Of a stretch of 36,729 nucleotides of DNA, positions 25,474-29,130 are shown piece after piece. How positions within the stretch are numbered: position 1 is the first letter of the stretch; the number at the start of each line of letters is the position of its first letter. The DNA is taken from contig ONAS01000046.1 of assembly GCA_900315815.1 (NCBI GenBank), positions 1 to 36,729 of the forward strand, in the 5' to 3' direction. The position numbers and the translations under genes were made by a program. This stretch comes from an uncultured Eubacteriales bacterium (GTDB lineage: Bacteria > Bacillota > Clostridia > Oscillospirales > Acutalibacteraceae). The notes beneath the pieces are model-generated. The model saw only the letters and a list, made by a program, of their open reading frames with translations. It was not told the origin of the DNA and made no database searches.

Positions 25474-26091
25474 TTATCTCACAAAATTGGTATGGACTCT
25501 CGCCTCACGCTCGGGCAGACCGAACTGTTTCTTTCCCAGAGCGATGCTCTTCATCAGGAAGATCATGTTATGCGCAAGGTAACGCATCATCTGCATGCCC
25601 TCCGCATCCTCAGCCGCCTCACCTTTTGCCGCACCGTGAACGCCGTTCCAGTAATAGCCGGAAGCAACAGGCATACCGCTGATGGTAAAGTACTTGTTCA
25701 GCTCGTCAAAGGTCGCGGTGAGTCCTCCTCTGCGGGCAACGGCGATCGACGCGCCGACCTTCATCGTCTTATCGCAGGAGCAGCTGTAAAAAAGCCTGTC
25801 AAGGAAGGAGATCAGCGTACCGTTCGCGGAAGCGTAATATACAGGCGTCGCAAATACCACACCGTCTGCCTCTGCGAGCTTCGGCGCGGTCTCATTGACC
25901 GGATCATCGAAAACACAGGCGCCTTTTTTGCGGCAGGTTCCGCAGGCGATACAGCCGTGTATCGCCGCCGTACCGAGATCGACAACGTCGACCTCTATTC
26001 CCTCTGCTTCGAAGATCTTCTTCATTTCATCGACCGCCATTGCGGTATTGCCGTCCTTGCGGGGACTTCCGTTGATCATTAGTACCCTCAT
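25474..26091 (-). CDS. Flavodoxin family NADPH-dependent FMN reductase-like protein
   Basis: This 205-residue protein starts with the FMN phosphate loop MINGSPRKDGNT. It also has CIACGTCRKKGACVF (four clustered cysteines, typical of this iron-sulfur-flavoprotein-like group) and FATPVYYASANGTLISFLDR, the usual flavin loop. The C-terminal half carries an MMRYLAHNMIFL helix. It leads the redox operon under a strong promoter at 26121-26148. The substrate is unknown. Confidence 0.88.
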   Translation of the reverse strand: MRVLMINGSPRKDGNTAMAVDEMKKIFEAEGIEVDVVDLGTAAIHGCIACGTCRKKGACVFDDPVNETAPKLAEADGVVFATPVYYASANGTLISFLDRLFYSCSCDKTMKVGASIAVARRGGLTATFDELNKYFTISGMPVASGYYWNGVHGAAKGEAAEDAEGMQMMRYLAHNMIFLMKSIALGKKQFGLPEREARVHTNFVR

Positions 26092-26950: not shown

Positions 26951-26980
26951 AAGGCTGCCGGAAAGCAGCCTTTTCTTTAT
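26951..26980 (+). terminator. Intrinsic terminator of the mscS-type gene
   Basis: AAGGCTGC (26951-26958) and GCAGCCTT (26965-26972) form a stem followed by TTCTTT. It lies between converging genes and probably works both ways. Confidence 0.75.
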
Positions 26981-27624
26981 GCGTTTTCATCTCTGACACA
27001 GCGGTAAAACGCAAGCAGTATCAATACATAGCACACGGTTTTCGGGAGCATGAGCATCCCGAGCAGCGGGACGTATGAAGCGCCCAGAACCACAGCGGCA
27101 TAAAACGCGAATGACAAGGTGACATAAAGCCAGATAAAGCGGATGTGCGGTATACCGCGCGTCCTGAAATACAGGACGACGATCAGGATCCCGAGTATCA
27201 GGAACGGGATATTGCGGATGATCCCCCAAAGAAACGGGCTGTCGTTTTCGAGCCACTTGTTCTGCGGAAAACAGCACAGCGCGATCCGCGCGGCGCTCAG
27301 CAAATAGACGACAGCGGTCACCGAACGTTTCTTTTCTGCCCCGTCCAGCCGCAGCCAGATATGATACATCAGGACATAAAACACGGTCATGGTGATCGAA
27401 GTCACCAGCTTGCCGACGCCGACAGCCGTGTTGAAATCACCTTCCGCAAAATAGCCGAGCATCCGCGGTACCAGATGGAACGCGTCGCCTCCGCCGAGGA
27501 CAAGACAGGCGATCCCCATCAGCCGTTGTTTATTGTTCTTTGAACGAATTAAAATCAGCAAGCCGACGGTGATTGCCAAAAGCAGATACAGAATGTCAAA
27601 GATACTCTCGCCATATTCTTTCAT
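26977..27624 (-). CDS. Seven-helix integral membrane protein of unknown function
   Basis: The 215-residue protein has about seven hydrophobic segments (near 8-27, 37-57, 68-92, 102-120, 132-152, 161-186, 187-207), with short charged loops. A GGGDAFHLVPRM stretch in the second helix stands out. I do not recognise the family; no ATPase or transporter signature is visible. Its ATG overlaps the stop of the radical SAM gene (TGATG), and GGGAGG lies 8 bases upstream, so it is the third gene of the VYAGP-peptide/radical SAM operon. It could export, process or sense the product, which is inference. Confidence 0.75.
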   Translation of the reverse strand: MKEYGESIFDILYLLLAITVGLLILIRSKNNKQRLMGIACLVLGGGDAFHLVPRMLGYFAEGDFNTAVGVGKLVTSITMTVFYVLMYHIWLRLDGAEKKRSVTAVVYLLSAARIALCCFPQNKWLENDSPFLWGIIRNIPFLILGILIVVLYFRTRGIPHIRFIWLYVTLSFAFYAAVVLGASYVPLLGMLMLPKTVCYVLILLAFYRCVRDENA

Positions 27625-28667
27625 CAGGTGTTCCTCCCGTTATCGCGCAAACTCCGCGCGCAGTTTGGATATTCATACAGCTTTCGATGTACAAAGAAAT
27701 TATAGGAGCGGCATCCTCCTCCGCAGTAAGCGCCGTATTCGCACGAGGCGCATTCACCGGTCAGCAAATCGGGCGTAAAGCGTCTGTTATAGGCAAAGCC
27801 GTCGGGATTTTCCCATATGTCGCGCAAAGGAGTCTCGCGCAGATTCCCCTCGATAAAGCGCGCATCATACATCGATTCACATCCGCGCACATTCCCGACG
27901 CTGTCGATACCGATGACCGACAGTCCCGCGCCGCATCCGGGAAAGGTCCTGCGTCCGTACGGATCACCGCGGATCAGACCCTCGTCAGCGGTAAAATATC
28001 CGATATTATCGGCGATCCCGATGGGAAACGGCGCATCACCGCGATGCCTGACGACAAAGCCGATCACCGCGTTCGGATCAAAGCGCACATCGACGCCCGT
28101 CGCGGCGGCATTCCCCATCGGAGAGCATGCCTGCAGCTGCCACGCTGCAAGCGGATATCGGCGTATCCCGGCATACAGCTCCTCCAGTGAAAGCACATTT
28201 TCCGCGTTCAGCGTCGTTATCATCGTCGTGACGATCCCTGCGCCGGTCAGCGCCTCGATCGCCTTGACGGCACGCGCATAACTGCCCGGCTGACGATATC
28301 GGTCATGCACACGTTCGACGCCGTCCAGCGACACCGCCACCGATTCGATATCCAAGTCCCGCAGATCACGGATGATATCCTCGGTGAACAGAAAGCCGTT
28401 GGTGATGATCGTCACCCTGATGCCGTACTCCGACAGCCGCTGTACGATGGTTCTCCAGTCACGCCGCATGAACACCTCCCCGCCGATCAGATTGACGCGG
28501 CGACAGCCGAGATCATTCAGCTGGTCACAGATATCCAGGCATTCGTCGGTGCTCAGCTCGTCACGGCGGGCTTTGCCTGCCTTTGAGCCGCAGTATTTGC
28601 AGGAAAAACAGCACGCCAGCGTGATCTCCCACACACACGAGGTCAGCCGGTACGGACAGCTATTCAT
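27624..28667 (-). CDS. Radical SAM/SPASM domain protein, candidate peptide-modifying enzyme
   Basis: This 347-residue protein has the radical SAM CxxxCxxC cluster motif at Cys19, Cys23 and Cys26 (ACCFSCKYC), a GGE-type motif (LIGGEVFMR) and the usual TIM-barrel strands. The C-terminal SPASM domain has CGAG...GNVRGC and then CASCEYGAYCGGGC (CX2CX5CX3C) plus a late Cys, enough for two auxiliary iron-sulfur clusters. SPASM proteins usually modify peptides or enzymes through carbon radicals. The ATG at 28667 overlaps the last codons of the upstream VYAGP gene; an earlier in-frame start at 28712 is possible but would lie deep in that gene. No separate leader-binding (RRE) domain is obvious. Confidence 0.9.
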   Translation of the reverse strand: MNSCPYRLTSCVWEITLACCFSCKYCGSKAGKARRDELSTDECLDICDQLNDLGCRRVNLIGGEVFMRRDWRTIVQRLSEYGIRVTIITNGFLFTEDIIRDLRDLDIESVAVSLDGVERVHDRYRQPGSYARAVKAIEALTGAGIVTTMITTLNAENVLSLEELYAGIRRYPLAAWQLQACSPMGNAAATGVDVRFDPNAVIGFVVRHRGDAPFPIGIADNIGYFTADEGLIRGDPYGRRTFPGCGAGLSVIGIDSVGNVRGCESMYDARFIEGNLRETPLRDIWENPDGFAYNRRFTPDLLTGECASCEYGAYCGGGCRSYNFFVHRKLYEYPNCARSLRDNGRNT

Positions 28668-29058
28668 CGAATCCGACCGGAGGTCCGGCATATACATCCA
28701 TCGGGTCTTCATCGTCCGTCTGATAGTTTATCGGATACGGCGGCTTTTCAGCCGGAATAAACGGCGCATTCATCCCCGTCATGTCAGGCCCCGCATAGAC
28801 GCCTGCCGCCATTTCGGGATCGCCCGTCAGAAGCTCCGGCGTTTCATCGGAGCATGCTTTTTTTGAACGAGCTAAGTCTGTCCCGCATTGGTCACAGAAC
28901 CTTGCACCGGGCTTTGCCGGTGCGCCGCAGGATGGACAGAAAGCGTCTGATCCCTGCTCGTTCTGCGGATCAGACGGCTCGGCGGGAGGACTCAATTTTC
29001 CGTCGCCCATCATTCCGGGACCTGCGTATACGCACATAAATTTTGGACCTTTTCGCAT
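28660..29058 (-). CDS. Small zinc-ribbon protein with three VYAGP motifs, candidate radical SAM substrate
   Basis: The 132-residue protein is low in predicted structure, rich in Pro, Asp and Glu, and carries VYAGP at residues 10-14, 87-91 and 122-126. The first two are followed by a Met-rich GMMG or DMTG. Between them sits a compact zinc ribbon, CPSC (41-44) and CDQC (55-58), and a lone Cys69. The ATG at 29058 follows AAGGAG by 7 bases and gives the N-terminus MRKGPKFMCVYAGP. The repeated short motif, the small acidic protein and the coupled downstream radical SAM/SPASM gene together suggest a multi-core peptide substrate. No homologue is recognised with certainty. Confidence 0.72.
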   Translation of the reverse strand: MRKGPKFMCVYAGPGMMGDGKLSPPAEPSDPQNEQGSDAFCPSCGAPAKPGARFCDQCGTDLARSKKACSDETPELLTGDPEMAAGVYAGPDMTGMNAPFIPAEKPPYPINYQTDDEDPMDVYAGPPVGFDE

Positions 29059-29079
29059 ATCGGTACTCCTTTCATGAAC

Positions 29080-29130
29080 AAATACGGCCTCTCCGCAAGG
29101 AAGAGACCGCATGGATTTGATATTGTATCA
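29080..29130 (-). promoter_or_regulatory. Leader of the VYAGP operon: extended -10 and imperfect hairpin
   Basis: On the minus strand TGA plus TACAAT (29122-29130) forms an extended -10 overlapping the permease stop codon. An imperfect hairpin (29085-29109, GCAA-type loop) follows, then a TATTTG stretch. The hairpin could terminate the ABC transporter transcript or attenuate the VYAGP operon. No good -35 is seen. Confidence 0.35.

Follow-up and report, generated by a model that had tools for sequence, protein, structure and literature searches.

The stretch of DNA analysed here (the window) comprises positions 1 to 36,729 of a contig from an uncultured Eubacteriales bacterium of the Acutalibacteraceae (GCA_900315815.1, ONAS01000046.1), on the reverse strand of which lie three coupled genes coding for a small protein with repeated VYAGP pentapeptides, a radical SAM/SPASM enzyme and a membrane protein (Table 1). 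The description of these genes in an earlier annotation made from the letters alone (hereafter the sequence-only reading) is confirmed. The first product is an acidic protein (pI 4.2; 21 acidic and 10 basic residues) of the length previously given, with VYAGP at the three places previously given and, between the copies, a zinc ribbon that scores above the family cut-off (Pfam Zn_Ribbon_1, E 2.3e-8); it holds no X-Y-G site. The DNA pattern for VYAGP occurs three times in the 2.38-Mb genome, each time inside this gene, and the reversed control pattern not at all; the three copies therefore exceed chance. The AlphaFold model of the protein, built from single-sequence input, has a pLDDT of 52 and is of little use outside the ribbon, where the low confidence may reflect disorder. 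A short inverted repeat noticed by eye between an ABC permease gene and the target gene (GGTCTCT...AGAGGCC, 29081-29112) is perhaps a weak terminator or processing site.

Table 1. Features of the VYAGP locus in the window (forward-strand positions).
Feature	Position	Strand	Remarks
Shine-Dalgarno-like AAAGGAG	29066..29072	-	ahead of target gene ATG at 29058
Predicted target/precursor protein	28660..29058	-	132 aa; three VYAGP sites and zinc ribbon
VYAGP site 1	29017..29031	-	residues 10-14
Zinc ribbon	28873..28941	-	residues 40-62; optional in the family
VYAGP site 2	28786..28800	-	residues 87-91
YPIN (YPx[N/S/R/G] motif)	28726..28737	-	candidate recognition element
VYAGP site 3	28681..28695	-	residues 122-126
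Radical SAM/SPASM enzyme	27624..28667	-	splicease-like clade; ATG at 28667 preferred
Membrane protein	26977..27624	-	215 aa; coupled in the window

As the sequence-only reading had it, the last codons of the VYAGP gene overlap the start of the radical SAM gene, the probable ATG of which sits in the final 8 bases of its neighbour (ATGAATAG); the open frame with an ATG extends to 28712. The enzyme carries the complete CxxxCxxC (residues 24-31) and SPASM CX2CX5CX3C (residues 311-324, in the numbering of the frame 27627-28682) described before, and these cysteines, together with C250, C268 and C341, are invariant across 20 aligned homologues. Pfam recognises both domains (Radical_SAM, 2.5e-26; SPASM, 7e-6), the AlphaFold model is confident (pLDDT 86.8), and a structure search of the PDB with this model returned known radical SAM folds, PqqE, SkfB and SuiB being the best; SkfB is also the best PDB match by sequence. 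The stop of the enzyme gene overlaps the start of the membrane gene by one base (TGATG), and for the product of the latter a hydropathy scan over 19 residues gives the expected seven hydrophobic peaks. Its inclusion in a conserved system does not hold: the membrane protein was found in only 3 of 83 enzyme loci and is rejected as a component. ABC transporter genes, including one for a solute-binding protein, and an amylase gene of opposite orientation flank the pair upstream; downstream are two flavodoxin-fold reductases and a short-chain dehydrogenase, with a mechanosensitive channel on the other strand. The membrane and channel genes recur in L007 and L008 only; the dehydrogenase group adds L061, and the reductase group L033 and L065.

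Homologues of the enzyme were sought with a three-row alignment in the contigs of 84,980 species, each represented by a single genome; the best 80 of 125 confirmed loci, the window and two loci of the same genus gave a set of 83. A partner was called where an open frame with the motif had its stop between -130 and +90 bases from the estimated enzyme start, and such an abutting upstream gene is present in 79 of the 83 loci. Among the remaining four, L059 is cut by a contig end, with the end of a zinc-ribbon frame visible, L055 has a CVYAGPP frame downstream of the enzyme, and L063 has an IYAPP frame just downstream on the opposite strand. The fourth, L028, is devoid of a motif gene in its 11 kb, and a six-site zinc-ribbon relative lies on another contig of the same genome; no enzyme occurs in the 3-kb stretch around that target, so a target need not be encoded beside the enzyme. 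Two separate motif-bearing frames surround a single enzyme gene in L089 (one per side) and L090, and L061 (1645-2703) has a tandem of three paralogous frames (about 105-112 aa), with one YAPP site and no zinc ribbon in each. The sources named for many loci are rumen, other ruminant stomach and faecal, and the groups named are Clostridia or Bacillota.

The distribution of the enzyme is sporadic; in the genus to which the window belongs, 3 of 36 genomes carry it, the window's own counted. Across 293 genomes of the class there are five close matches (at least 490 bits, own genome counted) and five of sister type (302-312 bits). The same number of genomes was surveyed for VYAGP by exact codons only, with full site positions for 14. 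Tandem clusters occur in four of these 14 genomes (G000, G259, G168 and G336), each of which has the enzyme; G225 has the enzyme and scattered exact VYAGP, its target carrying variant sites, and in the other nine exact VYAGP is scattered. Tandem copies are thus confined to enzyme-bearing genomes within this sample. As far as tested, neither of the two computable outcomes that the sequence-only reading had named as contrary to its proposal, widespread VYAGP proteins without a radical SAM gene and a clade always beside an unrelated target, was found.

The 79 partners contain 330 Y..P sites, 201 of which are VYAGP. The residue before Tyr is V in 264, A in 26, L in 20 and I in 8; Tyr+1 is A in 282 and G in nine (VYGGP 5, LYGAP 4); Tyr+2 is G in 249 and A in 44, followed by P by definition. 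Four residues before Tyr, M is the commonest (140 of 330), and the motif is followed by E, G, P or D, then often by M, Y or F, and then often by M or F. The strict pattern [VA]Y.[AGCS]P was counted 278 times in the partners, against a mean of 2.0 and a maximum of 7 in 200 shuffles. Since a looser version of the motif had served to select the partners, the control frames, rather than this selection, carry the argument: the 688 other open reading frames in these loci, 207,477 aa in all, hold the strict pattern three times, never twice in one frame, and match the looser motif in 32 cases. When the Tyr of the strict pattern is replaced by another letter, the 278 matches fall to 6 for V, 3 for M, 2 for C, one each for F and I, and none for W, H or L. 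Copies number one to ten per partner, with at least two in 77 of 79.

VYAGP is very probably the target of the enzyme; the earlier proposal that it forms the modified core gains this grade from the one to ten copies, with a nearly invariant Tyr, in 79 abutting partners. Were the VYAGP protein a partner or chaperone of the enzyme and its repeats a binding motif, the folded domains of some targets (FHA in L023 and L082, a kinase in L082, FMN reductase in L065) would be accommodated, and the role of substrate is itself a predicted one. Such an arrangement is nevertheless improbable, as the copy numbers and the near-invariant Tyr suit a multi-site substrate better, and as the domains change and the motif stays, which makes the motif, rather than any domain, the constant. 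Among these composite proteins, L082 (3761-5023) joins a kinase-like domain, a VYAAP site and an FHA domain in a single protein beside the enzyme, and L065 (3901-4992) has VYAGP sites fused to its FMN-reductase domain, which falls into the same BLAST group as the FMN-reductase gene downstream of the enzyme in the window (25474-26091).

The zinc ribbon is likewise variable. The pattern CxxC...CxxC is found in 62 of the 79 partners (Zn_Ribbon_1 at 1e-3 in 57), and among the 17 without it at least two, L050 and L065, have a near-variant. L007, with one of the two enzymes nearest to that of the window, has a partner that lacks the ribbon but keeps three Y-A-G-P sites. Because of these 17 partners, the suggestion that the ribbon is a necessary scaffold or recognition element is not supported, and the ribbon is rejected as a generally required recognition domain. 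The same cysteines bear on whether the enzyme could be a thioether maturase of the sactipeptide or ranthipeptide kind acting on target Cys. Cys does stand two residues before Tyr in 50 of the 330 sites, and SkfB is the best PDB sequence match, but the other 280 sites have none there, VYAGP itself is free of Cys, and four Cys make up the ribbon pattern in the 62 partners, so that this chemistry is very improbable indeed.

A further element, YPx[N/S/R/G], had escaped the sequence-only reading, which was right about the VYAGP repeats as features of the target. Of the 79 partners, 67 have it, 66 of these a single time, and its 68 sites compare with a shuffle mean of 14.2; the rate is 68 per 14,672 aa in partners versus 68 per 207,477 aa in control frames. 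Of the 12 partners devoid of it, five have no YP.. at all; L064 and L047 do have YPDN and YPSN, respectively, within their open frames, ahead of the assigned start. This motif may be a docking element.

The best NCBIfam matches of the enzyme are TIGR04103, which we take to be the subclass IPR026482 named in PMC11002830 (228 bits; cut-off 725), and TIGR03913 (207 bits; cut-off 592); the mycofactocin maturase model gives 136 bits. Ten sister enzymes (L092-L096 and L100-L104) were taken from the class survey and a plasmid search, and a first tree combined them with 30 VYAGP-type enzymes of 87 loci and five outgroup rows; a second was built from the same rows minus four long ones, with two outgroup rows remaining. 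The VYAGP clade is supported at 100/99 in the first tree and 100/98 in the second, and its union with the PlpX-family and DUF1843 enzymes at 96/89 and 98/92. A group of VYAGP and all X-Y-G enzymes apart from TIGR04133, mftC and TIGR04053 receives 96/85, and 100/100 with two outgroup rows. Alternative trees in which all X-Y-G enzymes form one clade apart from VYAGP (p-AU 0.288) or in which VYAGP joins the third X-Y-G group (p-AU 0.186) are not rejected, the tree program warned of long branches in both trees, and the order inside the splicease-like group is not firm. Nine signature residues (V13, W72, Q178, Q180, M185, G245, G254, L303 and G319; add 4 for the numbering of the frame 27627-28682) are shared without exception by all 12 ingroup rows, namely four VYAGP enzymes and eight of the ten sisters, and none of them is found in more than one outgroup row of five. 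Most of them are missing from the mftC enzyme (L105), which falls well away from the VYAGP clade. Judged by sequence, the enzyme belongs in a splicease-like superclade of X-Y-G/A systems, a grouping of our own. The sequence-only reading had presented the repeat protein and the radical SAM enzyme as a candidate new RiPP-like system; the pair is indeed conserved, and the link to spliceases had been missed.

X-Y-G/A/M sites occur in the frame just upstream of the enzyme in eight of the ten sister loci. In the Nostoc locus L100, a Nif11 precursor ending GSIALYGLPPELF, with an LYGLP site, lies beside a TIGR04103 enzyme above the cut-off (853 bits). DUF1843 triplets carry LYG, PYG and MYM in L103, and LYA, MYA and PYG in L102; PLYGIEP repeats are present in L092 and L094, a VMYG site in L101, and FYGLPP, which may be due to chance, in a gene annotated as phosphotransferase in L104. 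A site beside the enzyme was looked for in L095 and none was found, and in L096 the only site is TYA, roughly 800 bases upstream in a frame of 86 aa. Ala or Met at Tyr+1 thus occurs among the sisters (LYA, MYA, MYM), as does Gly in some VYAGP partners (VYGGP, LYGAP). In L093 (368-1309), many YG[VIA]P-like sites come after a chagasin-type (I42) peptidase-inhibitor domain, a hint of a link between ketoamide sites and the inhibition of proteases. Some DUF1843-type enzymes apparently have a zinc ribbon of their own, C-terminal in L102 and L103 and N-terminal in L104, with Pfam scores below the cut-off.

Among characterised systems, PlpX excises tyramine at X-Y-G (PMC11002830), and its printed tag, PIRPLYGLPI, follows the form X-Y-G-x-P (PMC10533398), whereas the sites of the VYAGP system follow X-Y-A-x-P. 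Spliceases are described as forming ketoamides in ribosomal peptides and proteins, with uses in protease inhibition and bioorthogonal labelling (PMC11002830, PMC10533398), and spliced products as inhibiting proteases (PMC11117315, PMC10373908). The VYAGP system resembles PlpX/PlpY in its radical SAM/SPASM enzyme with TIGR04103 as best NCBIfam match, in the signature common with L100 and in having several sites per target. It differs in that its enzyme is below the family cut-off, its sites are mostly X-Y-A, and most of its partners, which are 79-421 aa long (incomplete L047 left out), are zinc-ribbon proteins, with no Nif11 domain among the families listed. A phmmer search for PlpY, a truncated RRE, covered 9,620 six-frame segments from the 83 loci; its query, the L100 protein called PlpY-like from its place and size, had no hit at E up to 10. 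Because of the cut-off and this result, the enzyme was left out of the TIGR04103 family.

The GDL/DUF1843 systems (TIGR03913) have sister enzymes and tandem targets with LYG, PYG, LYA, MYA and MYM sites. The VYAGP enzyme is again below the cut-off, DUF1843 is absent from the 23 families listed for the 79 partners, and the zinc ribbon is in the target, whereas in the GDL/DUF1843 system it is tentatively placed in the enzyme (L103, zf-ChsH2 1.6e-4, below cut-off). The clostridial X-Y-G enzymes come from the same bacterial class, and the targets in L092-L094 bear LYGIxP or YG[VIA]P repeats; these targets are without sequence kinship to those of the VYAGP system, and the enzymes have about 510 aa with a C-terminal extension (L092-L096) or 384 aa (L101). 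As far as tested, the VYAGP system is a variant with the same enzyme group, another site, other target proteins and no PlpY found. Scott et al. (2022), as cited in PMC10533398, reported 27 other characterised and 939 predicted splicease systems under a title that names peptides and proteins, and the VYAGP clade may already be listed among them. Literature searches for "VYAGP" gave a match on gels only, and those for zinc ribbon with radical SAM gave matches not containing "zinc ribbon".

We therefore read the pair, with a probability of roughly 60%, as a protein-modification system in which a splicease-like enzyme would act on each X-Y-A-x-P site. The enzyme would recognise its target with YPx[N/S/R/G] as docking element and modify the Tyr of each VYAGP site. 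By analogy with known spliceases, part of this tyrosine is most likely excised; the kinship of the enzyme and the resemblance of the motif to those of X-Y-G spliceases suggest that tyramine would be removed, leaving a Val ketoamide before Ala. Contrary to a splicease are the X-Y-A sites in place of X-Y-G (282 of 330), the score below the TIGR04103 cut-off, the failure to find a PlpY-like protein and the two of ten sister loci without a convincing site (L095, L096).

Kinship with spliceases could also be by descent only, and the enzyme could catalyse another radical reaction at the VYAGP Tyr, such as a cross-link to the following Met, Phe or Pro, desaturation or decarboxylation. SPASM enzymes catalyse many reactions, the nearest PDB folds are PqqE, SkfB and SuiB, the conserved residues after the motif (E/G/P/D, then M/Y/F, then M/F) are possible cross-link partners, and the mycofactocin maturase, which modifies a terminal Val-Tyr, is a weaker relative. 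However, the sites beside the enzyme in eight of ten sister loci argue for splicing, and the distant mftC enzyme, without most of the signature, argues against mycofactocin-like chemistry. A three-residue Tyr cyclophane (triceptide) requires a C-beta at Tyr+2 and is disfavoured by the Gly that stands there in 249 of 330 sites. Other chemistry at this Tyr is accordingly regarded as unlikely, if well short of negligible.

Three further candidates were rejected. The one PqqD match in the window genome, on contig C73 beside an apparent PEP-utilising enzyme (by eye), is unlinked to the pair and was not retained as the RRE of the system. The structural model has about 14 residues ahead of the first strand, so that no RRE is predicted to be fused to the enzyme N-terminus. 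Prokaryotic viperins (pVip) have the viperin fold, a nucleotide substrate and no SPASM domain; a viperin or defence role was dismissed given weak PADLOC matches (67.7 and 65.3 bits) and the full SPASM cysteine set.

Clustering of neighbouring frames of at least 60 aa, with some flanks ended by contig ends, placed no gene other than the enzyme and partners in more than 10 of the 83 loci among the 25 largest groups; an ABC ATPase group, among the larger ones, reached 9. A same-strand gene follows the enzyme within 200 bases in 36 of the 79 loci with at least 300 bases downstream, and among the 25 of 50 Pfam families listed none occurs in more than two of these 36 genes, one of which codes for a rhomboid protease. 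In some pathways, RiPPs that include spliceotides leave the cell through C39-peptidase transporters (PMC10885120), and L095 and L096 adjoin an apparent C39-peptidase ABC exporter (by eye). As no recurrent peptidase or peptide exporter lies beside the VYAGP pair, its product probably remains inside the cell as a protein, although a protease or exporter encoded elsewhere in the genome may serve it.

If spliced, this product would stay in the cell as a multi-site protein resembling protease inhibitors; Val or Ala ahead of the ketoamide would, speculatively, suit elastase-like enzymes. More tentatively still, and on balance doubtfully, the clade could represent a new splicease branch that acts at X-Y-A-x-P without PlpY and turns resident zinc-ribbon, FHA, kinase and flavoprotein scaffolds, rather than secreted peptides, into carriers of one to ten ketoamide warheads with Val or Ala ahead, that is, into proteins of gut and rumen Clostridia for protease inhibition or covalent capture at several sites. 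If true, a branch apparently without PlpY, with another site and up to ten sites per protein, would widen the set of splicease enzymes, gut and rumen bacteria would hold electrophile-bearing proteins inside the cell, and VYAGP proteins that are now recognisable by their zinc ribbon alone or by nothing would be given a function.
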